From positions 10,602,501 to 10,666,500 of the forward strand of contig OX485805.1 in the NCBI GenBank assembly GCA_950295325.1: DNA of 64,000 nucleotides, in the 5' to 3' direction. Each line of letters begins with the position of its first letter. Position 1 is the first letter of the stretch. This DNA comes from Polytrichum commune. Taxonomy: Eukaryota > Streptophyta > Polytrichopsida > Polytrichales > Polytrichaceae. A model generated the notes under the pieces. It made no database searches. It had not been told where the DNA came from and saw only the letters and a list, made by a program, of their open reading frames with translations. Positions 1 through 20,275 of this stretch are shown here, one piece after another. Both the position numbers and the translations under genes were made by a program.

Positions 1-2394
1 AAAGGCTCGAAGGTGACAAGGTTGAAGTAAGCGTCCCCTTCAAACTGGACAATCTTCTTCTCCTTGATGAAGTTCGAGAACGCACGCGCTGTGTGATCCG
101 GAAGCGCCCGGTTCTTCCCACCCTTCACCATCTTGGCCCGCAAGAAGTCATCCCCCGCTTCCCTTATTAGAGCCGCCATGGAGGCACTGGTGAACTTATA
201 TTCAGCTTTGAATGCTCTCCAGTTAGCCTCATGAACCTCGCCGTCCACGACAATATTCCTCTCCGGCACCAATTTATGCAGCTCCTGCACTATAGTTGTC
301 TTCTTTTTCCTATTCTCAGTCCATTCCTTCATGGTGTAGCATGAAGGGACGAAGGATTTGGGCTTTAAGAAGACAATCTTCGGGTGCACCCAGCACCTTT
401 TCGCCGTGGGCGTGAAATGCAGGATGTGCGCCGCCGCCTTCTCCATCTCCGTCTCGGAAAGGCCTTGAAGAGTTCTAAAGAACTCTCTCACGAGAGGCTT
501 CATTTGTTTGAAGCGCGTGGTTTGGTTGAAGAAAATTCATGTGTCCGGGTCGATGAGCTCACCCGTCTCATGCTTCTCAAATACACTCTTCCACTTCATC
601 CAAACGGAGTCGGATGCTGTTATTAAATAAATCTCCCCTCTAAGCTCGTTGTATTTCTTCTGTTTGTGACTAGCATTATCAATGGAGGAGAATTTATTTA
701 TCATTTGGTATTTGAAGTCCTGCATGTGATCAAAACAATCATTTGAATGCATGTTAGATATGAACATGTGATTTCCAAAACATATCATGACCAGTGTCTG
801 CACCAAGAGTTTGGGTCGATCGACCCAAACTAAAAAAACATGACTGCAACAAGAGTTTGGGTCGATCGACCCAAACTAAAAAAACATGACTGCAACAAGA
901 GTTTGGGTCGATCGACCCAAACTAAAAAAACATGACTGCAACAAGACTTTGGGTCGAGCGATCCAAACTAAAAAACATGACTGCAACAAGACTTTGGATC
1001 GAGCGACCCAAAGTACACAAATAAAGCTGCAAAAGGAGTTTGGGTCGATCGACCCAAACAATACTCACCTCCCACTTGGGATTCTTGTCCTTTGCATTCT
1101 CCCTCTCCTTGGGAGGCCTACCATAGAACTCCCACACCTCCCGCGAGGCCATGATATTCCTTATCCAGGAAGCTTGGTAGGCCCTTTTCTTATTCCCCAT
1201 GTTAAAGTAACGGGAGATGTCGCTCAGTCGGGTCTCATCGTCAGACCACACCACCAGTGCCTTCCACACCTTCAACTTCTCCTTCTGATGGTTGGGATCG
1301 TCCCACTCAGTCATCAGTTGGATTTTCTTGGAAGCCTCAACGCTGTGTTGGCCGTCTATGAGCCAAAAATCGCCTTTCTGAATTGTCGCCCACATTTCAG
1401 GGGTAGGCATTTTCTTCAGTCCCTGGGGCATCACTACAATGGTTTGCCTGTCGTCTTTGAATTGTTCGCTAACGATCTGCGCGATTATCCAATCGACGTA
1501 GGCGTCTTCTTTTGCCCGGACACATTTTTCTGGTGGCGCGAGATGACATTGACTGATGTTCACGTCGAATTTGAAATCCCTGCCCATGAAAAAGCAATGG
1601 GAGCACTTGGTCGTGAAATTGTTCACGATTTTTTGGATCTCCCCTGCATCCACTTCCTGCCCTGGCTTCGGCATGCGCAATTCTGGAGAGACTGGCTCGT
1701 CAGTCATCACAGATGACTCTCTCGCCCTCTTGGAGGAAGTTGTTTGGCGGCTGCCAGAAGGCGTAGGCGTCTGGCTATCCGCCGGTGTCTCCGATGGAGT
1801 GGTTCGTCTTGAGCTAGCCGGGACTGGTTGCGGCATCCTCACTGATTGAGGCCTTGACGACCCTGCACCTTCCTCAGTGGGTACCTTCCGCCTGACGGCT
1901 TGCTGAGACTTCGTTTTGCTCTGCAGGGCTTTGTTGAGCACGCTGATTGCATGCTTTAGTTTCGTAAACCGGCTCGAGACCTTTGTGTTCGATGTACTGG
2001 CATCGATGAAAATTGTCTCGGGTTTGATTACATCAGGTTCGACACATGACTCCCTTGCATATGTAGCGTCAAAGGGTTCGACGAACTGGTGCAGAAACAT
2101 ATGAGCATTCTGCACAGCGTTGTTCTCAAGGATGACGTCTGCGTAGTCTCCAAAAGACTGGACCGACGCCACCTCCCATCCCGTAAGAGTCGCCCAGGTA
2201 TGTTTTTCCACGGTCCCTACTTTGACAACGAATATCAGTTTGTAAATGGAGGTTTTTACTACTTGAATTGACCAGGCGAGGACAAGCCCGTCCTTAGGGA
2301 CATATGAGTCATCCTGAGGTGTTTCGTGCTCCTGCCATAACACGTCTGGCGCAAGCATGAACCACCTTTCTCCTGGTCTTTTCTTTGGGGCCAT
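1..2394 (-). CDS. Copy A: ParB/Srx/DGQHR-like domain protein with methyltransferase-like region (5' part, runs off window)
   Basis: Exon 1 is 1069-2394 (442 codons). Its ATG directly follows a splice acceptor (TTTGCAG|ATG), so the start lies just after a leader intron. The first 200 residues (MAPKKRPGERWFML...) are unrecognised, then comes a Ser/Thr/Pro-rich linker. Around residues 355-440 the motif WLIDGQHSVEASKKI and, downstream, ISRYFNMGNKKRAYQASW match the shape of ParB/sulfiredoxin and DGQHR (DndB-like) domains. The intron is 720-1068 (GTGAGT...GCAG, phase 0). Exon 2 (719 to below 1) begins DFKYQMINKFSSIDN and reaches a segment ending NLVTFEPF that aligns with the methyltransferase-like part of copy B. 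One in-frame stop is visible in exon 2, so this copy may also be a pseudogene. The family assignment is motif recognition, not a search. The protein's function is unknown. Confidence 0.6.
720..1068 (-). repeat. Intron 1 of copy A: six palindromes in a 46-bp tandem repeat
   Basis: The intron is mostly a tandem repeat of 45-46 bp. Each unit carries the dyad TTTGGGTCGNNCGACCCAAA, at 810, 856, 902, 948, 993 and 1039. Four are exact and two have one mismatch. The centres are AT or AG. The spacer (ACATGACTGCAACAAGA) is unrelated to the spacers of other arrays. Confidence 0.9.
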
Positions 2395-2937
2395 CTGCAA
2401 AGAAAGAAGCAAGGATGTTAGTTTTGGTCGTTCGACCCAAACTTCTTCACAATAGATTAGATGTCACGTGATGGAAGGGAAATGTAATGCATCAACGCAT
2501 TTATTTTTGGATTGTGTCTTGTTATTTTAGAACTTCATTTATATGTTTATATGGTATTTCGTTATCTTGGGTGGATTTGCGTTTTATATTGTCATCAAGG
2601 ATTTCTTGAAAAGTTTATACTGTAGAGGTTGCGTTTGGGTCGACCGACCCAAACAGCAGGATGTGCTTTGGGTCGATCGACCCAAACTATAGGCTGTGTT
2701 TAGGGTTTACGGACCCAAAGCACATCGTGCTGTTTGGGTCGATCGACCCAAAGCACATCCTGCTGTTTGGGTCGATCGACCCAAACTATAGGCTGTGTTT
2801 GGGTCGTCTCCCCAAACTGTTCTATTTTAATATAGCTTTTTAAACTTGGCATGTAGCATATACAATGCTTATGCATTGTGTATGCTACAACACTGTCAAT
2901 TAAGAAACACATATTGAAACCCCTTGAAAAACAATAC
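2395..2937 (-). repeat. Leader intron of copy A with a 33-bp palindrome array
   Basis: The minus-strand donor AAAG|GTATTG is at 2937 and the acceptor TTTGCAG is just before the ATG. It contains the 20-bp dyad at 2634, 2667, 2733 and 2766 (exact), one near copy at 2424, and decayed copies near 2700 and 2799. Starts from 2634 to 2799 are 33 bp apart. The same leader intron, with its own palindromes, is found in copy B. Confidence 0.75.
2853..2888. promoter_or_regulatory. Conserved hairpin in the leader intron (copy A)
   Basis: A 16-bp inverted repeat (GTAGCATATACAATGC / GCATTGTGTATGCTAC, one mismatch) encloses a 4-nt loop. A matching hairpin with the same core lies in the leader intron of copy B (12525-12554). 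It is about 50-85 bp inside the intron in both, which suggests a retained function or structure. The role is unknown. Confidence 0.7.
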
Positions 2938-3850
2938 CTTTGCTAAGGGTTTCTGTTGTAGTCGTTGCAGATGGTTGCTTTTGAACAAGTGCTCTTCTTC
3001 GACTAAGACAGAATCAGTGAATTCCTATTCGCAGACACGCTAAAACTCACAAACAACTACCAAAGATTTCAAACCTTTCTTGAATCTCTCAATAAACCCA
3101 CAATCTCTCACACAACTCCTGAGTCTCTTCAGAATCACTCAAACAACAATTGTAACTCTCAAACAACAACTGAGTCTGTTAAAACAACAACTGAATCTCT
3201 CAAAACAATAACTAAATCTCTGAAAGCACTTTTGTATCACTTTTGTATCTCTTATAGAACTTCCTAATCTGACAACCACTCACAAGCACTCACATGCACT
3301 CATAAGCACTCACATGCACTCACAAGCCCTCACATGCACTCACAAGCACTCACATGCACTTACAAGCACTCACATGTACTCACAAGCACTCACATGCACT
3401 CACAAGCACTCACATGCACTCACAAGCACTCACATGCACTCACAAGCACTTCGAACTCTCGCAAGCACTGCCTAAAGCTCACACAGAATGTTGGAAAACC
3501 CTTCAACAATCTGGAAAACACTTCAACAATGCTATATATTGCAACACTAGTGCAATCTCCCGCTACAGCAAGAGAAGGGAGGGAAGGAGAAGAAAAAAGG
3601 GTGGAGAAGGAATGTAAAGAAAAGCGCCACCCTGAATCGCCACGGCGCTTCAGGAGAGGCGGCGCTTCCACAAGAGGCGCGGAGCGAAAGGTTGGCGGGA
3701 GAGAGAGAGAGAAAGGAGGAGAATGCTTGGCGGCTGGGGTTTTGTTACCCTCGGGAATTGGCCCCCAACCGCGCGAATAGGGTGCCAACGTGATTAGGGC
3801 AGCAACGGGAATAGGGTTACGGGGAACCCTAACTCCCATCCCTCTAAGGA
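2938..3850 (-). promoter_or_regulatory. 5' leader / promoter region of copy A, with minisatellite
   Basis: Upstream of the leader-intron donor. In the sense (minus) direction it begins with a CT-rich stretch (about 3560-3800) containing TCTCTCTCTCTC-type sequence and GC-rich GAAGCGCCG motifs. Next is a minisatellite at 3277-3450, with a 20-bp unit close to CACTCACAAGCACTCACATG. Then come degenerate GTTGTTTGAGAG repeats. Copy B has an equivalent CT-rich, GTTGTTT-rich leader at 11710-12474, so this is judged the transcribed leader. No clear TATA box was chosen. Confidence 0.5.
3277..3450. repeat. Minisatellite, 10/20-bp unit
   Basis: Nearly perfect alternation of ACTCACAAGC and ACTCACATGC, about 17 decamers. 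It is open in some frames, but the translation is pure repeat and is not considered a gene. Confidence 0.9.
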
Positions 3851-4320
3851 GTAAACCCTTAGCGGGTAGTACAATTTTGAATAGACTTTGGAGTAGCCTA
3901 AGGTATACATCAAATGAGGTATTCTAAAAAACTAAACCATTTATACAACTAATACATCTTTACAACGCAACTTTATGCTAACACTAATACTTAATTCCTA
4001 CTTACATGACACCATTAACTAAATTTTCCAAACAAGTTGAAGTCATTGGTTTCTCGTTTGTTTGAGCACGTTATAAAAAAAATACAATTACGTGCCAAAT
4101 ACAATAGACTTTACCATTGATGCCAACAAGTCACACAATATGCAATGAATAAAAAAGACAATCCCCACCCCCCAACATGAAATTCGGAAATTGAGGATAT
4201 TTGAATGTGGAGCCTAAATGAATACCTTCCCCAAGTGCATATTGTGAGGGTTTGGAATTGCATGATCTTTATTTCAAAATGCTAACATGCTCAAGTTTTA
4301 TAGGGTATCCCCTAGATATT

Positions 4321-5155
4321 CACTTTGATGAATCACATAGTCGCCAATAAACCATGGATCGTGATATATGTACTTGGAATGTGATATAAAAGCAAATCGG
4401 AGAACCACAACATCATATGAAGCCCTTCAAGCAATCATGTTGTTATTGAAGGTTCGCTCCAAGTATATTAGATAATGGCGCAAGACAAACTTGATGTTGT
4501 TTGTATATGGAGGTAGCACTGAACAACTACAAGATTTGGGGTTTAGGGTTTAGGGTTTAGGGTTTAGGAGTCATGGTTATAACATATTAATCTATCCAAT
4601 ATTAACGTACAACATTGACTTACTGGTGAGAAGAGTCTTATAGGAAGGTTATAGTAAAGATGATGTTGAGTATGTTAAGTTGTTATTTGGGACGTTTAAA
4701 CGTGATATACTAATTGGTCTTGTGTTTATTCAAATAGCATTTCATGTTGTGGATGTTATTAGGACTTAGGGGTCTAACTTTGGATGTTTTGCTCCCTTTG
4801 ATGAATCACATAGTCGCCAATAAACTATGGTTCGTGATGTATTTAATATATGGAATGTGATATAAACGTAAATCGGTTAAGCACAACATCAAATGAAGCC
4901 ATGCAAGCAATCGTGTTGTTGTTCATTGTTCCCTCCACGTATATTAGATAATGGAGAAAGATATAAGAAATGTTGTTTATATATTAAGAAGAATCTAATA
5001 GGAAGGTTATAGTGACCACAATCTTGATCATGTGAATATGTTATTTGGAACGTCTAAACATGATATACTAATTGGTGTATGGTTTAGTCAATACGTATAA
5101 TTTCATGTTGTGGATGTTATAAGGGTTTAGGGTTCAACTTTGGATGTTTTGTTCA
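4321..5155. repeat. Diverged tandem duplication, two units of about 360-476 bp
   Basis: Unit 1 starts at 4321 and unit 2 at 4797, both with TTTGATGAATCACATAGTCG. Further matching blocks follow in the same order, including GAAGGTTATAGT and the TTTCATGTTGTGGATGTTAT stretch. The units are clearly diverged. Function unknown. Confidence 0.8.
4535..4568. repeat. Interstitial telomere-type repeat
   Basis: Four consecutive TTTAGGG units (plant telomere motif) within unit 1 of the tandem duplication. Shorter runs occur near 5320 and at 5743-5761. These are short interstitial tracts, not a chromosome end. Confidence 0.9.
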
Positions 5156-5630
5156 CACACATTAGTAAGCTTGAAGTGAACTTGAGGATGGATTCAATTA
5201 GCATGGAAATATTGAACTAAAAAGCGACATTGGTAGTTAGTATCCCCTTATCGACGTCCACATACATTCGTCATTGCCACACTTGCATGCGAGAGAAGAG
5301 GACAATATTGTAGGATTTAGGGTTTAGGGATGACAACATATTATATATAAAAGCTCTTGTCACTTGCATTGTTGCAAATTCAGATTTGGAACAATAAATG
5401 AACTTTGTCATGACATAATTTGATTTCAAAATGAATAATTCCCCTTGCGAGGATCTTCATAACCACTTTAACTATTGTATTTAGTGACTCTTACCATAAG
5501 GCGTTACACAATGTTTAGACTTCTTTTGTCTACATATTGGTTAATGCCATACCGTAATGTTTGAATTAAAGTAGATCAATATCATCATTTAATATGTATA
5601 TGATGCATTAGGGTGACATTGTAGAAGTTT

Positions 5631-5690
5631 TTGTTTGATCCATATATTAATTTGAGACTAGAGAAAGTCTGAATTTAACGAATATAGTGT
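5631..5690. repeat. 60-bp hairpin module, copy 1
   Basis: Begins TTGTTTGATCCATATATTAA and ends TTTAACGAATATAGTGTT. It is repeated at 11170-11229 with one visible difference. The inner part, TTGAGACT...AGTCTCAA, can fold as an 8-bp hairpin in the second copy. The right half recurs at about 20387-20419. Flanking DNA does not match. Confidence 0.8.
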
Positions 5691-6411
5691 TACATATGTT
5701 TATCATTGCCACACTTCCATGCGAGATAATAGAGCAATGTTCTAGGGTTTAGGGTTTAGGGGAGACAAATAAATAATTTTATTCATCATGACAATGGCCT
5801 CAAGCCTTGGAAACTCTCTCATAATTGCAGCCTCCAAATGGCCCCAACCCCACCGAAATAGGTTTGCACTTGAAAGCATTGAATGGAGTTGTGGTTGGGT
5901 ATACATATTGGTTAAAATATACCGTTGTGACACTTGAAAAAATTAATGTGGCCGCCACCCTTCCTCCCAATGTCGTATGTCATATACACACAAAACCAAA
6001 AAAAGATTAAATATCATAGACTAAATCATATGACGGCTGGGGTATGAGAGGGGCATTGAAAGATGCGCATTTTCTACAATAAACAGAAAACGGGGAATTC
6101 TGTCAGGAGGTTTGAAATAACAAGGCGGGAAAGGCATCCAATGAGGAAGTCGGGCAAGTGGAGGTGGATAGTATAAAGGGGCGCACCCCCCAAAAGTTGG
6201 TTTTTTTTTGCTCTTCTCCCACTCCTGAATTCGTAGAGAGAACTCTTAGTCGGAGCTGTACTTCGAGGTTCGTTCACGCTGCTGTTCATGAGGACCTATC
6301 CACAGCATGCAAGTCCGCAGTGAACTTTGCAATGAGCTGAAATTCCACACACCTCTCAATATCCGCTGCATTATACGCCGCATTATACGCTGTATTATAC
6401 GTCGGTCGACA

Positions 6412-6925
6412 CTAGTGTTGGCGGGTTCCAGTCTGACCCTTGTGAGGTTTGGGTCGGTCGACCCAAACCCCTCTAGTAGTGTGGGCGGGTTCTAGTCTCA
6501 CCCTTGTGAGGTTTGGGTCGGTCGACCCAAACCCCTTCACTAGTGTTGGGGGGAGTCTACTCTGACCCTTGTGAGGTTTGGGTCGGTCGACCCAAACCCC
6601 TTCACTAGTGTTGGGGGGGGGGTCTACTCTGACCCTTGTGAGGTTTGGGTCGGTCGACCCAAACCCCTTCACTAGTGTTGGGGGGGTCTACTCTGACCCT
6701 TGTGAGGTTTGGGTCGGTCGACCCAAACCCCTTCACTAGTGTTGGGGGGGGGTCTACTCTGACCCTTGTGAGGTTTGGGTCGGTCGACCCAAACCCCTTC
6801 ACTAGTGTTGGGGGGGGGTCTACTCTGACCCTTGTGAGGTTTGGGTCGGTCGACCCAAACCCCTACCCCACTGTGGGCGTTTATCGTAAAACCTTTTAGA
6901 AGGTTTGGGTCGGTCGACCCAAACT
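6412..6925. repeat. Palindrome array upstream of the DUF7869-like gene, about 65-bp unit
   Basis: Exact copies of TTTGGGTCGNNCGACCCAAA start at 6448, 6512, 6577, 6644, 6708, 6774, 6840 and 6904, all with centre GT. The spacer includes ACTAGTGTTGGGGG and CTCTGACCCTTGTGAGG; its G-run varies in length, which accounts for the 64-67 bp period. The array lies 0.7-1.2 kb before the start of the gene at 7608. Confidence 0.95.
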
Positions 6926-7014
6926 TTTTCGCACATCGTGAACGAATTGTTAATGGCCCTTACCCAAGGTACTCAGAAGGTTTGGACGGACAGAGTAGGA
7001 ACCTTATCCCATCA

Positions 7015-7430
7015 TATGTAATGTTTGGGTCGAGCGACCCAAACCTCATCCCAGTGTGGGTGGATTTACACTGTGAAAGTTTGGGTCGACCGACCCAAAC
7101 CCTTTCCCGGTGTGGGTGGACTTACCCTGTGAAAGTTTGGGTCGACCGACCCAAACCCCTTCTGAGTGTGGGTGGGTTTACCCTGTGAAAGTTTGGGTCG
7201 GTCGACCCAAACCCCTTCCCCAGTTTCGGCGGTTGTAGTTGACCATGACAAGGATTGGGTCGATCGACCCAAAGTTTTCCCCACAGTGTGATGGAATTCT
7301 AAATGGCCCTCAACCCATCATTGTACAAGGTTTGAGTCGGTCGACCGGAACCCGACCCTATCCCACGGGCAAGGTGGGGATGGCCCTCAATCCCTGGTGC
7401 CACAGGGTTTAGGTCGGCCGACCCAAACTC
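7015..7430. repeat. Second palindrome array upstream of the DUF7869-like gene, 56-bp unit
   Basis: Exact dyads at 7024, 7080, 7136 and 7192 (centres AG, AC, AC, GT), 56 bp apart, with spacer GTGTGGGTGG.TTACCCTGTG. Near copies follow at 7254 and 7408, and a decayed one near 7331. It may belong to a leader intron or promoter of the gene starting at 7608, by analogy with copies A and B. Confidence 0.9.
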
Positions 7431-7607
7431 CCACCCAAAATATTTTGTGGAACATTTTGTGGACTGGCGCACAGTATTGGGAGCTCACATTGCATTTGTG
7501 TTGCAAATGTCTTGATCCTCAGTGTCCCCATTCATCGTGATGTTTTGCATTTTCCAATATTTGATTTTTTTGGACCCTTACGTTGTGTCCATGTTTGTTG
7601 AGGTTTC

Positions 7608-10600
7608 ATGTGCATATGTGTAGGCGTAATGGAGGGAGTTGGTGGAAGAGGGGATTCCTTCTCTGAAGACATGGGCAGCACCCAATCTCTGTCTGGGGAT
7701 GAGCTAGACATTGTCGGGGAGGATAGTTTTGATGACAGTGCAGATGAAGGTCATTTGGGGAGTCCTTCGCCATCTGACCCTTTTTGCCCCATTGTGGAAT
7801 GTGCGGGGCTTTCACGAGCTTCATGGGTGAATTTGGATGTGGTACTTGTTAATGACAGTGGAGTTGCTGTGGCGGAGGGTATTTGTCGTAACACACATCC
7901 ACAAGATTGCATTGATGAACACCCCCTTGGCACCGAGGACGTTGGAGTTGTTATATTAGAATCACTCGTACATTCGGAAGTCAATCCAACTCATAGGTTC
8001 TCGTTGCGAAGGTGGCCGTTGAGGAATGTGACAATTGAGGGGGTTAGCTTGCGCGACCATGAGCGACGACACGTCCAAATCCAACAGGAGCTCCAAGCAA
8101 ACATTCGGCCACGCAAAGGCCTTCGGAAGTACGAAACATTGACACGTCCTACTCCGTCTACAAATAAGTGTAAACGTCAAAGGTTGCTCTGTGAGGAGTC
8201 TATTAGAGAAGTTGCTACGAAGGATTGTTGTGTACATCGTTGTTGCCAATTGTTCCCAAGAGATAAATTGAAGGCCATCCGTGAAGAAATGTGGCTTGGA
8301 GATTTCCGTCTAAGATCCACCAAAAAACTTGATGTCCATAGGGCGATACATGTGAACGGAGCGGGTCGCAAGGTCATCACCCATGAGAGCATAGACGTGT
8401 GTTGTACGGCATGGTACACCATTCATGGTGTGTCGAAAGCGGAATTTTATAGACAAGCCGCGTATGCCAATGAAGGCCGCCGTGCCCGTCACCATGGGAA
8501 CATGGGCTTAAAGAAACCAAGAGAAGCAACGAGACAAGCAACAGCCACTTTGGCAACCATCATTGTCCCCCTTGCCGATGCAATGCCGCACAAAACACGC
8601 ACACTCGCAACCGGTGAAAAGGTTGTGGAGAAGGTTCTTCCTACAGGCACGAAATGGAAAGACATATTGTTGGACGTAAACGCAGTTGGCGAGAAGGCCG
8701 GGTTGGACCCAATTTCGTTGTCGAAACTGAGTGCTATCAAAAAATCTCACTTTAGCGAATACATCACAAAAAGACGAGGCGACAAATTTGCCCGTTGTTC
8801 CAAATGCGAGAAGTTGAAACGCCTTCGAGATGCACACACGATGGGGACAGAGTCCTATGCCGCACATCAAATGAACTATTTCAAGCATGTGAACATGCAA
8901 GAGGCACACCGTAATGATTACTACACAAATAGAGCTTTGTCCATCTCCAGGCCTTTGGAAGTCCTTACAATCATCCATGACAAGATGGACCATGCCAAAA
9001 CAGCCTCACCATGTTTTGCAAATCGAATCAAAGCCACGGACGGCCTTTTTAAGCTTCCTGTTTCGGTTACAGGTGATTTTGATAACAATTGCATTGCATT
9101 ACCTAAACACAAATTTGTGCGTTTAGGTTTGTACTTGGGGCCATACATGTACACCATGTGAATTTTTTGGTGTTATAGTTGAATATTAAACCATTGGGTT
9201 GCCTTTGCAGGAATGATTGCACATGGGCATGGTGATGTCAAATATGCTCATTATGCTCTTGATTTGTATCCGGCGGATTCAAACCACACGATAGGGTCAT
9301 TTGCAAAGCTTTTACGTGATTTGGAGAAACCGCTGTCCTATTCATCAAGATTGCTATTTGAAAACTCGGGATCAACACCTCTATATGAAGCGGTCTTGGA
9401 TGGAAGAGATGTATGCGTGCACTCATTGCCGGAGCCACCAAGTGAAGATGTGATTGCCAAGAAGTTGCCCCCAACTCTGCGTGTCCAATTGGACAATTGT
9501 GCGAAGGACAATAAAAGTAGATATGTTTTTGCATATTGGTCGTTGTTGGTTGCGAAAGGCATTTTCAAGGAGGTTTTTGTGTCCTTTCTATTGGTAGGCC
9601 ATATGCACGATGATATTGATGCGTCCTTTGGGCGGTGGAGCATGAAGTTGCGCGAGGAGGATTTTCCAACAATCCCATTGTTGATGAAGTCGTACATGAA
9701 TTTGGAGAACATTCCCGTCATCCCCCATATGATCGAGGAGGTTCCAGACTTCAAGGCATTTATAGAACCGTATATTCGAAGCGGAGCTCACCGATTGATC
9801 GGGCATACGAAGGCACAACAATTTCGGTTCTACGTGCGTGACGATGGTGTCCCCGCCATGCAATACAAGTTGTTGTGCACATCACAAGACTGGAGCCCGC
9901 CGGAGGGTCTCCTTGTATGGCGTGTTGATGGGGAAGGAAGGACGATGTTGCCTGACGGAGAGCCTAAGCCTTGCAAACCAATACCCATGAAGAATTTGGA
10001 GGACATTTGTAAAGGCATATCAGGCTTCATACAATATTGGGAGAGTTTGAGGGTAGCGGATGTTGGTGGATCGTGTTGGCTTCGTTACGGAAGTTGGATA
10101 CAATATTGGACACGTGTTCGTGGCGCTTTGGCAAACCTTCATCAAGATACACCCCTTACTTTAAGGCATGGGTTTTGGCCACAAACACGTGTCAATGTAC
10201 AAGCTTCGGAGGCTAGTCTTTTGGGAAATGGAGAGGTTCGAGAGGAGTTTGATGTGGACGACCATTACGTGGGGCCTGCTAGTAGTCGTCCGCCACCATC
10301 TTTCCGCATTGCAGTGGATTGTCATGAAGGTTATATGTTCATTTTGCGTCCTGGAGATGAGACATATGCAAAGCCAGTGTGGGTGGCAAGAGCTTTGTCC
10401 AAACCAAATTTTGTAACTTCCAGCCCTCATTTTCGACAAATACAAGTAGAGTACTACCGATCGACAGCACGGAATGAAGATGTTGTTCGACATTATACAG
10501 GCTGGGATACAAACCCTAACTTTCGGTGGAAGGTGGATTCTGAGCATGGTCCATCTTGGGTAGATACAGATTCCATATTCATAGCATGGAAACCACGGAA

Positions 10601-10697
10601 AAATCATAGTGGATCAGTGTCCATCCCTCAAAAGTACATAACTTTTGCAAAAGACAACCTTGCTCGGATCGCAGAAGAAGCAACCCACGTTGAATGA
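7608..10697 (+). CDS. DUF7869-like protein, possible RNase H-fold transposase, two exons
   Basis: The exons are 7608-9072 and 9211-10697. The 138-bp intron (ACAG|GTGATT...TTTGCAG|GA) joins the frames as SVTG-MIAHGHGD, giving about 982 residues without a stop. ATG 7629 is an alternative start, because an AG acceptor-like site (TGTGTAG) precedes it. Exon 1 is acidic at its N-terminus, then has a Cys-rich segment (KDCCVHRCCQLF), basic stretches and a CSKC motif. Exon 2 has VQLDNCAKDNKSRYVF and VGHMHDDIDASFGRW, with DKMDH near the end of exon 1. This spacing of acidic and His residues recalls DUF7869 proteins and RNase H-fold (DDE-like) transposases. That assignment is from memory of the family and is uncertain. 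No terminal inverted repeats were found, so mobility is not shown. Two palindrome arrays lie upstream. Confidence 0.7.
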
Positions 10698-11460
10698 GAA
10701 GTTGGTAGGATTGTGTTAGCATGATTATAGTGTAAACTGTAATTCGACGAATATATATTACTCATATGTGTGCTCCTCAAACTTGGGGCAAAGTTTGGGT
10801 AGAACTTGCGAATGCTATATTGTTTGGGGTTGGATGAATATCCATTTACTATATTTCAATACAGTTGTGAAGTTCATTTTTTTTATTAAGTTTGGGACTA
10901 AATTTTCCATTGAAGAAAAATGCATTTATTGCATGCACTTTGTATGTTGCAATGTCTATATTTTATTGACCATGCTAATAATAGAAATTATTTTATATGT
11001 TTCTTGGGTGAAACTAGTTTGGAGTGCTCTATCCAAAGTGTTTTTGTAGATGAAGTTGGTGTTGAGTGCTCTACCACATGTGCTTATGTCCACACATAAT
11101 AGATTTGGGATATTAGAACATATAATATATTTGAGATCGTTCTCAATATAGTTTCGGAACACGGAATGTTGTTTGATCCATATATTAATTTGAGACTAGA
11201 GAAAGTCTCAATTTAACGAATATAGTGTTTTTATATTGTTGCACCGTGTAATTGCATTTGAGGATTGGAATATAATAATGACATACTCCTCTTAGACTTT
11301 GTATCACTCTCATCTCACTCTATATGACTACATTATTGAAATTGTAAAACAAATAATGGATTCATTCTACGATGTTAGCAATTCCAACGCGGGACCATTG
11401 AATTGAACACCATTAAAATCAAAGTTCGCGATGGTGTTAATTTTGTGGAATACCTTAGGC
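10698..11460. other. Downstream region of the DUF7869-like gene, related to 20580-20770
   Basis: No gene seen. The stretch around 10780-10960 (GGATGAATATCCAT, then TTAAGTTTGGGAC.AAATT) aligns with 20640-20770 in the same order, at lower identity. The second copy of the 60-bp hairpin module lies at 11170-11229. These shared 3' flanks suggest that both loci descend from one repeated unit. Confidence 0.5.
11170..11229. repeat. 60-bp hairpin module, copy 2
   Basis: Nearly identical to 5631-5690. Here TTGAGACT and AGTCTCAA form a perfect 8-bp stem with a 6-nt loop. Confidence 0.8.
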
Positions 11461-11699
11461 TATGTAGCTTTTCGAATTTTTTCTAATGGCCGCTATAGAT
11501 AGCGGCTTAGAATGCCGGGACCGAGCGGCCAAGAGAGGCGCTGGCCCTCCTATGTCGTGCTGCTAGGGGCGGCAGGTGTGCACCCCACAAGCCTCGGGTA
11601 GCCACCATCACCAAGAGGGTGTTGACACATGGCAGGGTGGCTGCCTGCGAGGCTTGTGAACCGTTGATGGGCTCGGCCGCTCCAATGGCCCAGATTGGG

Positions 11700-12474
11700 T
11701 CCCAAGGCTAGCCCTATCTCTCTCTCTCTCTCTCCCTCCGCGATTTCTTTTTCTCTCCCTCCGCGCCAAGCTCCCTCCTTTCTCTCCCTCCTTTCTCTCC
11801 TTCTTGTCGTGAAGCGGCGGCACCTCCCCCGAAGCGACAGCTCCGCCTAGCGCCGCATTTTCTTATTCTCTTACTCCTTTCCACCTCTGACATTCTTCTA
11901 ACCTTCTTCTCGGATTCTCTCTTCTTTTTGTAAGGGTTTAGGAGCAATTTCAGTGTGTGTTTATTGTAGAGGAGTGTGTTTTTGTTTAGGGGGACTTGCA
12001 TTGAATGATTTCAGAGTCTGTTTGTTGTTTATGAGTGTGTTTTTGTTTATTGAGTGATTTCAGAGTGTGGTTGACGTTTAGGAGAGTGTTTTTGTTTAAA
12101 CAGACGCGCATTGAGTGATTTCAGAGTGTGGTTGTTGTTTAGTGTTTAGGGTTTTTGTTTAAAGATACGCGCATTAAGTGAATTCAGATTGTGTTTGTTG
12201 TCTAGGAGTGAATTTTTGTTTGAAAGTATGCGCATGGAGTGTTTTCGGAGTACGCTTGTTGTTTAGGAGAGTGTTTTTGTTCTAGAGTGCGCGCTTTGAG
12301 TGATTTCAGAGTGTTTTTGATGTTTTGAAACTGGCTTTTGTTCTTAAAGTGCAAGACAGAGTGATTACAACTTATTGCCTCAGTGATACAGAAACTTTGG
12401 CCTGAGTGTTAGTGAGATTTGAGTGTTCAGGTGTGATTACAGACTGATTACAGCTTATTGCAGCTTGAATCAAG
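11700..12474 (+). promoter_or_regulatory. 5' leader of copy B
   Basis: CT-rich (CTCTCTCTCTCTCTCCCTCC near 11720), then GAAGCGGCGGCACC and GAAGCGACAGC. After this come about eight degenerate repeats of some 60 bp containing GAGTGATTTCAGAGTGTG and GTTTTTGTTTA. Same order and composition as the leader of copy A. The donor CAAG|GTATTA ends it at 12474. Confidence 0.5.
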
Positions 12475-13104
12475 GTATTATCTTTACTCAACATAATATG
12501 CTTCAATTTCTCTAGGGTCTTGATGCATATACAATGCATAAGCATTGTATATGTTGTGTCCAAAAATTACATATGAATCTTGAAACACAATAGTTTTGGG
12601 CGACGCCCCAAATCTCTATATAAAACCCCAACCCCATAAAAACTTAACAATGTAAATGTTGCAGGTGGTTTGGGTCGCTCGACCCAAACCCTGCTGATGG
12701 TTTGGGTCGCTCGACCCAAAACCTACAACGAACCAAGCCAATATCTCAAACTAAACAACCTTCTAAACATTAATAACCATTTTTTTGATGCCCATAATGT
12801 GGAATCTCCTGAGACTAGTTGGCATGTCCACATATGTCCAGCGCGGATTAACCAAAACATCAAAAATTGCTGAGAGAACGGATAATTTGAACACTACTTG
12901 GTGCTAATCAATATACTCAGCGTCATAAGACTCGAAATCCACCAACAATTCTTGTATAATTGAGCTACTCCAGGCTTGGGTTTGGGTCGCTCGACCGAAA
13001 CCTGTCATTCATGGTGACCAAAAGAATATCGTTCTCCCATTCCACCAAATAGAATGCTTTGGGTCAATCGACCAAAACTAACAGTGTCGTTTCTAGAATT
13101 ACAG
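12475..13104 (+). repeat. Leader intron of copy B with palindromes and conserved hairpin
   Basis: Donor CAAG|GTATTA and acceptor AATTACAG|ATG mirror copy A. The hairpin GCATATACAATGC / GCATTGTATATG is at 12525-12554. Exact dyads lie at 12669 and 12701, near copies at 12981 and 13058. The exact pair is 32 bp apart, like the 33-bp array of copy A. Confidence 0.75.
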
Positions 13105-14430
13105 ATGGCCCCCAAGAAGAGACCTGGAGAAAGGTGGTTTATGCTCGCGCCAGACGAACTATGGCAGGAGTACGAAACTCCCCAGGACGACACATACGTG
13201 CCCAAGGATGGGCTCGTTCTTGCGTGGTCCGTCCAGGTTGTGAAGTCCTCCCACTTCAAGCTGCTATTCGTGGTGAAGGTGGGGACCCACGAGCAGCACA
13301 CATGGGCAACACTGACGGGATGGGAGGTTGCGTCCGTCCAAGCTCTCGGGGACTACGTTGACGTTATTCTGGAGAACTCCGCCGTGCAGAACGTTCATAT
13401 GTTCATGCACCAATTCTCCGAGGCTTTCGACCCCTTCTACGCCAAGGAGACGTGCATTGAACCGGAGACAATAAAACAGGAGGCCATCTTCATAGATGGC
13501 AGTGTAACAAACACTAAGATTGCTAGCAGGTTCACAAAATTGAAACATGCTATCACGGTTCACAACAAGGCGCTGCAAAACAAACCCAAAACGCAGCAAC
13601 CGTTGAGGCGGAAGGCCACGACAGAAGAAGGCGCGGGGTCCTCAAGACCCCAAACTGTGAGAAAGCCGCGGCCGGTGCCTGCAGACTCTCGAAGGACGAG
13701 TACTACCTCGACGCCGGCTGACAGCTCTACGCCAACGCCGTCCGCAAGCTGGCAGACGACACCGTCCAAGAGGGGAAGAGAGTCATCAATGATGACTGAC
13801 GAGCCAGCTTCACCAGAGTTGCGGATGCCGAAGCCTGGCCAAGAGGTGGATGCAGGGGAAATACAAAAGATCAACGACAACTTCGAAACAAAATGCATCC
13901 ACTGCTTCTTCATGGGCAGGGGCTTCAAGTTCGACGTTAACATCGCCCAGTGCCACCTTGCGCCACCAGAAAAGTGTGTCCGAGCCAAGGATGACGCCTA
14001 CGTTGACTGGATGGTCGCTCAGATATTGGGCGGTCAGTTCAAAGATGACAGGCAGACGATTGTGGTCATGCCCCAAGGCCTAAAAAAAATGCCGACGCCT
14101 GATATGTGGCCGGCAATTTCAAAGGGAGATTTCTGGCTGATTGACGGCCAACACAGTGTGGAGGCCTCCAAAAAAATTTAGCTGATGACTGAATGGGACG
14201 ACCCCCACAAGCAGAAGGAGAAGCTCAAGGTGTGGAAGGCATTGGTGGTCTGATGTGACAACGAGACCGTTCTTACTGACATCTCCCGCTTCTTCAATAT
14301 GGGAAACAAGAAGAGGGCATATCAGGCATCATGGATTAGGAATATCATGGCCTCGAGGGAGGTGTGGGAGTTTTATGGAAGGCCTCCCAAGGAAAGGGAG
14401 AATGCGAAAGACAAGAACCCGAAATGGGAG

Positions 14431-14694
14431 GTGAGCAAGTTTGGGTCGTTCGACCCAAACTCTTGTATTCTTTCATTGTCTTCGTCAGGCTTATAGTTTG
14501 GGTCGTTCGACCCAAACTCTTGTATTCTTTCATTGTCTTTGTCAGGCTTATAGTTTGGGTCGATCGACCCAAACTCTTGTATTTTTTTTATTGTCTTCGC
14601 CAGGTTTTTAGTTTGGGTCGACCGACCCAAACTGCTGATGCATTTCTTGTTTCATGACGTGTTGTCTAACGTGTGTTGTTTACTTCATTTGCAG
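14431..14694 (+). repeat. Intron 1 of copy B: four palindromes in a 57-bp tandem repeat
   Basis: Exact dyads at 14440, 14497, 14554 and 14612 with centres TT, TT, AT, AC. The unit spacer is CTTGTATTCTTTCATTGTC plus TTCGTCAGGCTTATAG. The intron sits at the same codon boundary (after NPKWE) as intron 1 of copy A, but its spacer sequence and period are different. Donor GTGAGC, acceptor TTTGCAG. Confidence 0.9.
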
Positions 14695-16059
14695 GATTTC
14701 AAATACCAGATGATTAATAAATTCTCCTCGATTGACAACGCAAGCCACAAGCAGAAGAAGTACAACGAGCTACGAGGAGAAATTTATTTAATCACTGCTT
14801 CTGACTCTGTGTGGGGAAAATGGAAGTGTGTTTTCGAGAAACACGAGACGGGGGACCTCACGGACCCCGACACCGGCATGCTCTTCAACCAGACTGCGCG
14901 CTTCAAGAAAATGGAGCCTCTGGTGAGGGAGTTCTTCAGAGCTCTTCAAGGGCTTTCGGAGACAAAGATGAGAAAGGCGGCTTCCCACATCCTTCACGTA
15001 CAGCCCACGTACGACGAAGAGATACTGGGTCCACCCGAAGATCGTCTTCACCAAGCCTAAAAGCTTCGTCCCTTCATGCTACACAATGAAGGAATGGACG
15101 GAGAACAGGAAGAAGAAGACGACCATCGTCCAGGAGCTGCACAAGCTTGTGCCGGAGAAGAAGCTCCTTGTGGATGGAGAGGTCGACGAGGCGCACTGGA
15201 GGGCCTTCAAATCCGAGTACAAGTTTACCAGTGCGTCGATGGCGGCACTCATGAGGGAGGCGGGAGACGAATTCCTCAGGTCCAAGCTCGTGAAAGGGGG
15301 GAAGAACCGGGCGCTTCCCGAACACTCCGCGCGTGCCTTCTCCAACTTCATAAAGGAGAAGGAGATCGTTAGTTTCGAAGGGGACGCACATTTCAACTTG
15401 GTCACCCTCGACCCGCTCAAGATCCAAGGCTGGCCAGGGTCCGATTCCAGGAAGGCGATCAGGACAAAAGCCGGGGATCGCTTCCCCTTCGCATTGATAG
15501 ACTTCAGAAACATCCCTGGAGCTTCATTCGAGGGGACAATGAGCACCTCGTTTTACGAGCCATTCTTCTCCAAGTTCGTCGACTAGTCCCAAATTCAAGG
15601 AGGTGGATATCTGGTTGTGGATTGTCGAGGACAGGAGGGCGGAGCAAGTCTACGAGATTGTGCGGAAATTGCAGCCAGAGTACGCCGTCTCGAAATCCCA
15701 CTACGTTGCTGCACCGGCGGAGGGGGCGTACAACACTTTGAAAGACAAGAAGACGAAGATCGTCAATGTGTTGTGCTTGTACTTCGTGTACAAAGCTGAG
15801 CTGCTGAAGGTGCCAAACCATCCTATAGCCCGGATGGAAAAGCTTTTCCAGGTCCCAGACGTGTTGGGTACCAGCAGGAGTTTGTACAATGAGGCGAAAT
15901 ACGCCAACTACCCCGCGGATGAGCTGCGGATGGATTTCTACCTGCGGATGATGAGGACCCTCACGAAGAGGGGGGACTGCATCTTCAACGTCTTCGGGGG
16001 CTCGAAACCGGTCTTCGCTGCAATGGTAAGCAACTACCCTGAAGTTTTAATGTGTTTGG

Positions 16060-16079
16060 TTTGGGTCGAGCGACCCAAA
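16060..16079. repeat. Single palindrome in intron 2 of copy B
   Basis: Exact dyad, centre AG, alone in a 128-bp intron (16026-16153, GTAAGC...TGTGCAG). Confidence 0.9.
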
Positions 16080-17259
16080 CTAGTTTTGTATTGGTTGTCA
16101 TTTTTCTCTATTCTTCATTGGTGATACTAACGCTATTGATATGGATTGTGCAGATGTCTGGGTTGAACATCTACTCCTATGTGGAGGATGCCGATGTTCA
16201 ATTCTACAGGACCCAAAAGTCTCTGGCTAAGAGGATGGACATCCTCGACTGGATACCGGGATCCTACATTGGCGAGATCCTCCAGGGGGGTGAGAATCCG
16301 CTTGATATGGCGAGGCGAATCAACCCGGAAGAATTTACCATGCGGCCCTCCGTTGAATTGCCAGAACCACTCATCGGGTTGCATCCGGGCAATCCGTCAA
16401 TGGGAGCAGGTGGCGAGGTTGCGGAGGAGGGGGAGGAGGAGGAGGAAGCAGAAAAAATGGAGGGGGAGGTGGAGGAAGGGGCAACATGATTCACTCAAGA
16501 ATCCGAAGCCCCTCAGCGGAAGAAGGCCATGCGGGCTGCCACGCCGCAGAGCAGGCTGGTGCCTGTGCTCACGGTGGACGACGCGAAGGAGATGTACTCG
16601 AGGGACGCGATGGCCACCTTCAGGGATCGGCGAAGGCTGAAGGGGAAGAAATTGTACAGCGACTATGCGGTGGAGGAGACGATCACCATAAGCTCCGAGG
16701 ATGAGGACGACATGGAGCTCGCGAAGAGGCTAAGGTCGGATCATGCCTCCCCCACAGCGTTCGCCGGGAATGTGAGGGTGAAACCGGAAGTCCTCACCGT
16801 GGAGGAGGCCAACGCGAAAATGCTCCGGGACGAGGAGCAGCGCGTCCGATTGGAGAAAGCTGCCGCGGATGAGCCCTCGGTCCGCAACGAAGTCGCGGAG
16901 TTGAGGGCTCTCCTTTTGGAGCAGGAGCGGCAAAGGGCGATGGCCCAACCTCCTTCCCAAGCGGAACTGATCACGCAAGTGATTCAGGGCATGCTGGCGC
17001 AGGGATTGGTGATGGCTCCCCCGAGTGCATTCCCTCATTTGCCCGCCGGCTTCCCTCCCCAAGATATCGGCCCGCGCGTCAGCAGTCATTCAGCTTCGGG
17101 CATTTGCTACAGCCGCACGCCCGCCCTTACGCGCCCGTCCAGCAGGTGGACGACCCCAACCTTTGGCGCGTCCCCGGAGCGTCCATCTCGTTGGCACCCC
17201 CGCCGCTCCGGCCTCCCATCCTCTTGCCCCCACACCACCAGCGGGACGACCCCCACATG

Positions 17260-17348
17260 TTTGGGTCGTCCGACCCAAACAGTGCCGACGTTGGAGCGTC
17301 CCAGAGCGACCCTCGCCAAGCAGTAGGGTTTGGGTCGGCCGACCCAAA
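17260..17348 (+). repeat. Two palindromes inside a coding exon of copy B
   Basis: Exact dyads at 17260-17279 (centre TC) and 17329-17348 (centre GC) lie in the open Pro-rich frame. They are translated as FGSSDPN and FGSADPN, both in the same frame relative to the dyad. A further exact dyad (17633-17652, centre GT) follows the putative donor GAG|GTAATG at 17610/17611. Confidence 0.8.
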
Positions 17349-17610
17349 CCCCGTCCCCGATCAGACCCCCGTTGACGAGCCCATGCTAGATGTTGAAGGC
17401 CCTCAAGGGCCTGATGATACCTCTATTCCTAACCCAGTCGATGAACCAATGCATGATGCGCATGCGGAGGTTGGGTTGGGACAAAGGCCTGACAGTCAAC
17501 CTTTGCAGGAGCAGGTTGCGGCTAACGTCGTCGTCGGAGGCGGCGGTGACAGAGGTGGGGCAATGCACGCGATGCCGGCATCAACGGCGTCAAGGCACGA
17601 CCAAGGCGAG

Positions 17611-18124
17611 GTAATGCACTGACCCCACTCAGTTTGGGTCGGTCGACCCAAACTCCCCAGGTCTTTGTCTTCTTGCCTTGGTCGTGTCCCCTAGCTAGGA
17701 CGAACTTACGCGCCCGTCACCCTCCCCCCCGGCACTCGCGCCCTTCGTCACCCCCGAGCGACCATCCGTTCGTCCACCTACCCCGGCTTGCGACGAAGTC
17801 TTCATCACGGCGGCGCGTCTCCTCAAATTTTGTTAGATGTAGATCTAGACTAGTTTGAACGCATCGTTCAACGCGGCTCCCCCCCATCAAGATGTATATA
17901 GAGCATTATATATAATATAATCACCATTTTTTACTCCTATATACTTGTATCTTGTGGTTAAATGTATCTTGTATGCTCTTGCCTCTCTTGTGTCCCTTGT
18001 TGCACCCCCTCCAAGATGAATCAAATGGTTTTGTGTTTGCACCGAGAACACTCGTTTCCTTAATGCTTCGTTTGGACATAGCATGACATAAGTTGCCCCC
18101 GTTTTCTCTCGCTCGTATCCGCAG
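17611..18124 (+). other. Putative phase-0 intron linking copy B to the phosphatase-like exons
   Basis: Begins GTAATG after CAAGGCGAG and ends GTATCCGCAG before GGCTCGGAGCAT; both borders are phase 0. Contains one palindrome near its start. If it is not an intron, it is the intergenic region between two genes. No in-frame ATG precedes the phosphatase motif in the next exon, which favours the intron reading. Confidence 0.45.
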
Positions 18125-19879
18125 GGCTCGGAGCATAGCGTAGCGGCTCCCCGACGCTCTTCTCCAAGGAGCGGAGAGGGCAGCACGGCGGCCCCCCCGG
18201 TTTTACCCGCCCCGCCCCCACTGCCGAAGAAACGATTCCTGGTGTTAGACATGAACGGTGTCCTCGTGCACTGCGTTCATTGCCCTAGGGCCCCCACGGT
18301 GCCCTTTTGCAAGCCCGAGGACGCTAATTACGACGGGCCGCCCACGTTCATAAAGAGCAAGCTAGTTCACCTCCGCCCGTGGCTTCGGACCTTCCTGCAG
18401 ATCGCCCAACAACGATGGTGGGTGGTCGTGTGGAGCTCCATGAAGGCCGAGAACACCAATGCCGTCGTGGAGTTCATCTTCAAGGGCATCGAGCCCCCCT
18501 GCATGGTCCTAGCACAGGAAGCATGTAGAATATTGTACACATCGGACGGCAAAGTCGTCAAAAAACCAAACAACGCCGCTTCCCCCCAATATCTCAAGGT
18601 CTTGAAGCCCATTTTTTGGGACCAGCGACCGTCCTTGATAGGCGTCCCCTACGATGTCCGTCCCACCCGCGAGAACACGCTCATGGTGGACGACAGCGCC
18701 GCCAAGAACATGTTGAACCCGACGGCCAACTTCATAGTTTGCCCTACGTGGACGGTCGAGAAGGTCCGGGACCGATTTTTGTTAGACCTTAGTAAATACC
18801 TCCAGGTGCTCTAGGGTAGCGGACTACCCGTAAACAATTTTGTTAGGAATAATCCCATAGGCGAGAGATACTTGGATCCACGAGACCATTTGTACAGAGA
18901 GTTGTTCTCACACGTGAAATTTAACAAGCTCATTTGAGGCACTACGTGTGTTTGTATGTGTGTGTGTGTGTGCGCCCGCCCACTTTGTGTAATACATGCT
19001 TCATATGTATCTTGATTTTCACGCTCTATCTCCCCCTTTTCCCTTTCCCTTGGGTTTTGTTTTGTTTCAATTTTGGCGCCAACGTTTGGAGCCCTTGATT
19101 GACATCGTCAGCGAGTCAGACTTGGGAAGCTTCTTCTACGATACCGTTTACGACGCCGCGTCGACCATTGACTACTCCAAGGAGCCTATTGACGCCGGCG
19201 TCGTCGATAGCCCCCCACCCAAGCAAATCTTCCGGCGCTCTGCGTCCCCGTCGCCGCTCAAGGGCATAGATCGCAAATGCGTCCGGACGTCCCCCTCCCG
19301 GCCCGGCGGCAGCATTACACCTCAACGGCGGCTGCGGATGGACGCTCAGCCTACGAAGAGTGGCACCCTTCCTATTCCTTTGCGGGATGCCTTGCCCCTC
19401 CTCGCCAACTCCGACGGGAACGCCCCCGGTGACAAGGTGAACCCCCCCCCCCCCCAACATGGTTAACCGTGCATTACAATCATTTTTCACTAAACAAAGG
19501 AACGTGTGACACGTTTGGGTCTTCCTCCCTAAACTAACACATGTGTTCTTGCATTCACGCGTTGCAGGTTGCTCCCACCCGTAAACCTATGCGGTCTAGT
19601 GCGTCCATCGAGTTGGAGCGTTTCTACTCCATGACCAGAAATGCAAGACAGTCCACTTCATCGTATTCGAATTCTTCGTCGTATAATTCGGGCGGCCGAC
19701 GGAATCCAAAATGTGTTATTGATGGCGGTCACCCCAAGAATGGCTATAGTCGCGGGGCGGAGATTTTCAGGAATGTTGAAGCAATGCGAGCAAAAGAAGC
19801 CGCAACAAAAGAAAAAGATGCAAAAGAAAAAAAAAAACAAAAGAAAAAGAGGCAGTCTCCGAGGCTAGATAGGCCATAG
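18125..19879 (+). CDS. FCP1/NLI-interacting-factor-like HAD phosphatase domain protein
   Basis: The exons are 18125-18805, 19092-19436 and 19568-19879, all phase 0, 445 residues in total. HAD motifs: FLVLDMNGVLV (motif I; the usual second Asp is Asn), VVWSSMKAEN (motif II) and TLMVDDSAAKNML (motif IV). This is the layout of FCP1/SCP-type CTD phosphatases. The first, nucleophile Asp is kept, so activity cannot be excluded. The second acceptor (GTTTGGAG) is weak and chosen by frame. Exon 3 ends in a Lys-rich tail (KEKKKQKKKR), a possible nuclear signal. A decayed palindrome lies in the last intron (19515-19534). There is no plausible ATG upstream of motif I in the first exon, and that exon is in phase with the last exon of copy B. 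It may therefore be the C-terminal part of the same gene. Confidence 0.6.
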
Positions 19880-20007
19880 TAGGCGTAGGGTTTTGGGCCA
19901 TAGGCAACATCATTTTGGGTCGCACTATCCAATGGATGTGTGGTGTTAGCATGCTATGCATTTTACATGCCATACTTTGTATGTTTTATTTGCAATAATA
20001 TAATTGT

Positions 20008-20275
20008 CACATGATTTCCCCTTCCATATGGTCCAAGGTTTGGATTGCCCTACCTAAACCATCACAAATATGAGTTTGGAATATTTTGTATGCAATATTA
20101 TATTGGTTAACATATTTACCCTTCAATAAGATCTATGGTTTGGATTGCCCTACCTAAACCATATTCATACAAGCTCTAATATTTTGTGTGCAATAATATG
20201 AATGTTTTAAGGTTTCCCCTTTAATTTGGTCTAAGGTTTGGATTGCCCACCCTAAACCATCACAAATATGAGTTA
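20008..20275. repeat. Three about 100-bp tandem units with decayed palindromes
   Basis: Each unit has GGTTTGGATTGCCC.ACC-type sequence ending in TAAACC, at about 20037, 20131 and 20234. The inner 22-bp box has the same length as the intact dyad plus its flanking G and C. Most of its differences are C-to-T or G-to-A. Units 1 and 3 share TCACAAATATGAGTT. Confidence 0.7.

Follow-up and report, generated by a model that had tools for sequence, protein, structure and literature searches.

Arrays of a 22-bp palindrome in introns and leaders of a Polytrichum commune gene neighbourhood as candidate binding sites of a transposon-like gene family

What keeps one short palindrome nearly letter-perfect, some thirty times over, within 17 kb of non-coding and coding DNA? 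The question is raised by a stretch of 64,000 nt from Polytrichum commune (assembly GCA_950295325.1, contig OX485805.1, positions 10,602,501 to 10,666,500 of the forward strand; hereafter the window), in which a sequence-only reading had pointed out about 30 exact copies of a 20-bp dyad between positions 810 and 17652. They accompany a gene with a DUF7869 domain and two paralogous genes that we call the DGQH genes. We favour, with moderate confidence, the reading that the dyads form arrays to which a dimeric, sequence-specific protein would bind in the service of a transposon-like gene family.

The dyad, TTTGGGTCG-NN-CGACCCAAA, has 30 exact matches in the window, all within 810-17652 as reported, and none in any of 100 dinucleotide-preserving shuffles. 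When up to three mismatches were allowed, 39 places were found: 38 within 810-17652, eight of them near copies with one to three mismatches (at least seven had been noted), and a weak three-mismatch match at 19914. The reported absence from the other 43 kb holds for exact copies, except that the stretch outside 810-17652 measures about 47 kb. The arms are separated by 2 bp in 30 of 30 arm pairs, and no other spacer from 0 to 30 occurs. The base before the 20-bp dyad is G in 35 of the 38 copies, and the base after it is C in 33 of the 38; the repeated unit is therefore palindromic over 22 bp, with two central bases that are free to vary. Its better form is GTTTGGGTCG-NN-CGACCCAAAC, with a fixed 2-bp spacer; written as a scan pattern, the dyad is GTTTGGGTCGNNCGACCCAAAC.

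According to our gene models, 36 of the 38 copies lie outside exons, in introns and leaders of the two DGQH paralogues and of the DUF7869 gene, which sits between the paralogues, is unrelated to both and carries the same dyad. Of 17 dyad loci, two fall in exons, which fill 52% of the stretch, and 15 fall outside them (binomial P = 0.0007), where both the grouping into loci and the exon borders are our own, drawn from translations and GT..AG borders. The DGQH genes lie on opposite strands, and their paralogous arms (1064-2441 and 13058-14435) are 76% alike.

Most dyads stand in tandem arrays, which have five unit lengths and differing spacers, share the dyad alone, and present the same core amid many different flanks. 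In all five arrays, pairwise differences are fewer in the core than in the adjoining 8-nt flanks (10/270 versus 52/240 in one array, 0/378 versus 29/336 in a second, and 0/108 versus 33/96, 37/96 and 51/96 in the other three), counted over pairs that are not independent and, for the 2634 array, without two of its units that are degenerate. Taken over the 38 copies, the core deviates from the motif at 11 of 684 positions, whereas a minority letter stands at 31 of the 76 positions in the centre; the selection of copies through their core match flatters this contrast.

The DGQH paralogues provide a second measure of constraint. The proportions of synonymous and non-synonymous differences (pS and pN) are 0.746 and 0.099 in exon 1 and 0.680 and 0.084 in exon 2, and 360 of 441 residues are identical between the exon-1 proteins. 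Judged by these values, the synonymous sites of the paralogues approach saturation, and the protein has been kept. Once the dyads are removed, the paralogous introns have identities of 0.71 (intron 2) and 0.68 (intron 1), compared with shuffle means of 0.66 and 0.63. Nevertheless, the dyads keep their places. In intron 2, the distance between the 5′ splice site and the start of the dyads is 8 nt in one paralogue and 9 nt in the other, and both 5′ introns run in the same order from a conserved hairpin around ACAATGCATAAGCATTGT through a degenerate dyad and then exact dyads to a last near-dyad, after which come AACTAACA and the ATG. A palindrome that is nearly letter-perfect amid such greatly changed DNA suggests that some protein may still dock there.

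The dyads also retain their CpG dinucleotides. Of the 76 CpGs in the dyads, two in each, 75 are intact, a retention that partly restates the conservation of the core. The overall ratio of observed to expected CpG in the dyad-bearing non-coding DNA, with the dyads masked, is 0.41. Outside its dyads, intron 2 of the minus-strand DGQH gene has a CpG ratio of 0 (no CpG in 217 nt), the lowest of these parts, and a TpG ratio of 3.5. This pattern fits methylation decay around sites that would be protected or selected. The coordinates of the dyads and of the features around them are collected in the table.

Table. Dyads, inferred gene parts and associated hairpins, in window coordinates
Feature	Coordinates	Strand	Dyads and remarks
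Intron 2, minus DGQH gene	720..1068	-	Six dyads in 46-bp units: 810, 856, 902, 1039 exact; 948, 993 one mismatch; borders inferred from GT..AG and the paralogue
Exon 1, minus DGQH gene	1069..2394	-	No dyad
Inferred 5′ intron, minus DGQH gene	2395..2937	-	Exact 2634, 2667, 2733, 2766; near 2422; degenerate units 2699, 2798
Conserved hairpin, inferred 5′ intron of minus DGQH gene	2852..2889	-	Counterpart of 12526-12553
DUF7869 gene leader	6448..7427	+	15 dyads over 980 bp, of which 12 exact and three near (7254, 7331, 7408); array units about 64 and 56 bp long
DUF7869 gene	7608..10697	+	Two open exons, 7608-9161 and 9213-10697; no dyad
Inferred 5′ intron, plus DGQH gene	12475..13104	+	Exact 12669, 12701; near 12981, 13058; degenerate 12595
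Conserved hairpin CATATACAATGC-ATAA-GCATTGTATATG	12526..12553	+	In inferred 5′ intron of plus DGQH gene
Exon 1, plus DGQH paralogue	13105..14430	+	Two in-frame stops; no dyad
Intron 2, plus DGQH gene	14431..14694	+	Four exact dyads in 57-bp units: 14440, 14497, 14554, 14612
Inferred intron 3, plus DGQH gene	16026..16153	+	One exact dyad, 16060
Two exact dyads	17260..17348	+	17260, 17329; apparent reading frame near C-terminus of plus DGQH gene
Exact dyad	17633..17652	+	Directly past apparent stop of plus DGQH gene
Four diverged 22-bp dyads, form GTTTGGRT...CCYAAAC	19513..20257	+	19513, 20038, 20138, 20236

We then consider which genes carry the dyads. A Pfam scan of 10 window proteins placed DUF7869 and NIF above their cut-offs in the dyad region and its flank, with DUF7869 (PF25273) scoring 135.9 bits against a curated cut-off of 26 (E = 1.6e-39). 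The DUF7869 label of the sequence-only reading is thereby borne out by Pfam, and its ParB/DGQHR-like label for the paralogues has no support from Pfam, NCBIfam or PDB; the sole basis of 'DGQHR' is the letters DGQH in the translation. The DGQH exon-1 protein has no Pfam match above cut-off (the best, GHBP, reaches 18.3 bits against 24), none near cut-off in NCBIfam and none in PDB, and searches of Rfam, NCBIfam and PDB gave no usable match. Neither this protein nor the second DUF7869 exon has confirmed relatives among viral contigs. AlphaFold models of the DGQH region (two sequences; mean predicted local distance difference test score, pLDDT, 41) and of part of the second DUF7869 exon (one sequence; mean pLDDT 37) were too poor to use. 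A literature search for the name DUF7869 found nothing, and one for DGQHR together with plant returned, by title, only bacterial work.

Both exons of the DUF7869 gene are open. In the plus-strand DGQH paralogue, exon 1 has its two stops and exon 2 changes frame; in the minus-strand gene, exon 2 has one stop. The low pN relative to pS and the broken DGQH copies together imply a long period of purifying selection followed by decay of the two copies, a history that suits transposon lineages and host gene families as well.

In the mechanism that we propose, a homodimer would dock on two 10-bp half-sites, GTTTGGGTCG, placed 2 bp apart, and its target would be the DNA rather than the RNA. Local tandem duplication would multiply the sites in the leaders and introns of a transposon-like, presumably mobile, neighbourhood, giving each array its own spacer and leaving the site unchanged. 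The putative binder could be one of the two resident proteins, DGQH-motif or DUF7869, or be encoded by a relative elsewhere in the genome. Binding may control the expression of the dyad-bearing genes or counter their silencing, much as VANC proteins work through their targets and TNPA through CACTA subterminal motifs. The idea of a dedicated system tied to these gene families, which had been put forward before, gains from the placement in introns and leaders, the paralogue-matched dyads, the fixed spacer, the free centre and the CpG retention; its ParB/DGQHR component has no support from profiles.

Several observations weigh against binding-site arrays of this kind. The dyads at 17260 and 17329 lie in an apparent reading frame, and both DGQH copies in the window contain in-frame stops. 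The CpG evidence is uneven: intron 2 of the plus-strand gene has, outside its dyads, a CpG ratio of 0.76, the highest of the parts, which rests on 4 CpGs in 176 nt. A weak similarity remains between the paralogous introns after the dyads are cut out, with an alignment score that was reached by none of 100 shuffles for each intron. Given this similarity, the dyad match could in part simply reflect descent. A second hairpin has been kept, too. We found no transposon ends, in an analysis that made no search aimed at CACTA ends, and the scanned proteins contain no recognisable DNA-binding domain. Regarding the second hairpin itself, CATATACAATGC-ATAA-GCATTGTATATG is palindromic and nearly identical in the two inferred 5′ introns.

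An alternative that we consider unlikely is a short mobile palindrome (a miniature hairpin, similar to a miniature inverted-repeat transposable element) that inserted into non-coding DNA and was tandemly multiplied without any function. Such an element would account for the same core in many different flanks, for arrays with five unit lengths and for the two copies in an apparent reading frame. It would also be expected to leave target-site duplications, yet exact ones were absent from all 19 loci for a 20- or 22-bp core at each k from 2 to 6. A 24-bp core gave 1 in 19 at k = 2 and 0 in 19 at k = 3 to 6, and 1 of 15 position tests reached P = 0.025 (k = 6). Copying from one master dyad is disfavoured because the centre varies freely, far beyond the core. 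In addition, the intron sites match between paralogues that are near saturation, and the remainder of the window contains no exact copy.

We next consider whether the palindrome acts as RNA. A hairpin in the pre-mRNA, with a stem of about 9-10 bp closing on GNNC and acting on splicing, processing or RNA binding, is in our judgement somewhat more doubtful than a mobile palindrome, even though the copies lie in introns and leaders and come near the 5′ splice site of intron 2. The dyads at 2422 and 13058 adjoin ACTAAC, a string that resembles a branch site. We aligned 32 of the 38 copies for pairing, in 29 distinct rows, omitting those at 6577, 6644, 6708, 6774, 6840 and 7136 as repeats of their neighbours. 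Of the 261 cells in the 9-bp arms, 9 are unpaired and two are G-U, and double changes, affecting both sides of a pair, are absent. The shuffles likewise gave no double changes, and the comparison therefore shows that the letters of the arms are fixed, not that pairing fails.

Outside the 22 bp, some preference for pairing is present. Among 16 independent loci, the first outer pair is Watson-Crick in 10 (P = 0.054), or 14 when G-U is counted (P = 0.02), and the second in 5 (P = 0.32), or 7 with G-U (P = 0.14). Among 24 less independent loci, the corresponding counts are 12 (P = 0.11) and 18 (P = 0.035) for the first pair and 8 (P = 0.09) and 12 (P = 0.01) for the second. The covariation score of a 13-pair stem was reached by 3 of 500 shuffles, in an alignment whose rows are related. 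This weak preference could hint at a stem, which adds to the points against a site read as DNA. A pure RNA stem is nevertheless disfavoured: letters have stayed fixed at positions where pairing by itself would permit drift, the spacer of 2 nt is invariant, and a constraint on the stem would give CpG retention no reason. We read this as sequence recognition first, to which a hairpin may possibly contribute.

Improbable, in our estimate, is an ordinary site for a host transcription factor in a host gene family that is free of transposons. Plant enhancers can lie in the leader and first intron, and the proteins have been under purifying selection for long; however, neither DGQH copy is intact, a density of 15 copies in 980 bp is unusual for host sites, and the dyad is not known to match any plant motif. 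A plain minisatellite, functionless and homogenised by slippage and gene conversion, is highly improbable despite the tandem arrangement of most copies, because arrays of five unit lengths have the dyad as their sole common part, without shared spacers, and conversion would need to work in tracts of some 22 bp, and between genes that are unrelated.

The binding-site reading has precedents among plant transposons. In Arabidopsis VANDAL elements, which are Mutator-like elements (MULEs), VANC proteins are described as targeting short motifs in tandem repeats of the transposons' non-coding regions (PMC5735166), and the repeats vary between related elements, with related families having other motifs (PMC5735166, PMC10398659). 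The dyad is likewise a short motif in tandem repeats of non-coding DNA. The differences are in the motif and in the genes. The VANC21 motif is the 9-mer YAGTATTAY, and further VANC motifs are AGTTGTCC/AGTTGTAC (PMC5735166), whereas the motif repeated here is a 22-bp palindrome, GTTTGGGTCG-NN-CGACCCAAAC, as seen without a separate search of the window for the VANC motifs. VANDAL elements also encode VANA, a MULE transposase, besides VANC; the Pfam scan found no MULE domain in the 10 window proteins, with VANC itself having no model among those used. In the VANC system, the protein binds its motif and lowers DNA methylation, a part that a binder of the dyad may also play.

Among CACTA elements (En/Spm, Tam1 and Tgm), subterminal motifs, which can form palindromes, are bound by TNPA-like proteins, and many copies accompany genes that encode a transposase and a DNA-binding protein, with motifs that differ between subfamilies; those of Tgmt* are found no farther than 159 and 732 bp from its terminal inverted repeats (PMC2613891). 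The dyad similarly consists of many copies of a palindromic motif. Unlike the CACTA motifs, the dyads lie in leaders and introns, no ends being seen in a window that was not searched specifically for CACTA ends, and no tnp2-type transposase was found by Pfam among the 10 proteins. Because motif, genes and position differ, we do not file the dyad under VANDAL/VANC or CACTA, despite the like anatomy. A palindromic site near a gene once called ParB-like also brings to mind the ParB-parS partition sites; here, the dyads lie in introns and arrays, and ParB/DGQHR has no profile or PDB match.

Searches beyond the window yielded no further relative of the dyad. The 22-bp form had no match in viral contigs. 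The 20-bp form matched one stretch in 257 Gb of prokaryote contigs, where a hand estimate (257 Gb / 4^18) gives about 4 by chance; the single match is thus at chance level and uninformative. In literature searches on palindromes with introns, Chara, ferns, subterminal repeats and paralogues, the dyad is undescribed among the matches listed, as far as titles and the starts of abstracts go, and the titles listed for the 9-base arms look like chance sequence strings.

Just beyond 17652, the window contains four degenerate 22-bp dyads, three of which repeat in tandem at intervals close to 98 bp; they lie downstream of an open reading frame similar to a NIF phosphatase (18242-18814). They are perhaps a sister motif, and by inference they would match the divergence of motifs between VANDAL families. 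A 61-bp direct repeat, 98% identical between its copies (5631-5691 and 11169-11229), flanks the DUF7869 gene. Part of it, the last 26 bases or all but one, is repeated at 20394-20419, with the likeness stopping at the same base. We rejected this repeat as the ends of an element on account of the third, partial copy, which is downstream and in the same orientation. Inverted repeats of at least 40 nt in 1-20400 are confined to the paralogue arms and dyad-related pairs.

Farther along the window, 28561-28750 and 37872-38061 carry an identical set of tandem repeats about 9.3 kb apart and are probably the two long terminal repeats of a Ty3-like element with an open reading frame at 30355-36594. Open reading frames resembling those of long interspersed nuclear elements occupy 49509-57141, and the first contains CGDIEPNPGP, presumably a 2A-like string.

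A bolder form of the binding-site reading, which we regard as quite doubtful, is a system of self-recognition. The DGQH genes (perhaps ParB/DGQHR-like) and the DUF7869 genes would mark their own members by a 22-bp address in leaders and introns, one resident reader would keep the family both unmethylated and expressed, and sister families would use variants such as GTTTGGATTGCCCTACCTAAAC. If the binding-site reading in its plainer form is right, these arrays would add another case, unrelated to the earlier ones, of a selfish-like gene family that carries a sequence-specific address system, and would provide a first functional handle on DUF7869 genes. The address is long, nearly exact and palindromic, and a simple binding assay could therefore find its reader protein.

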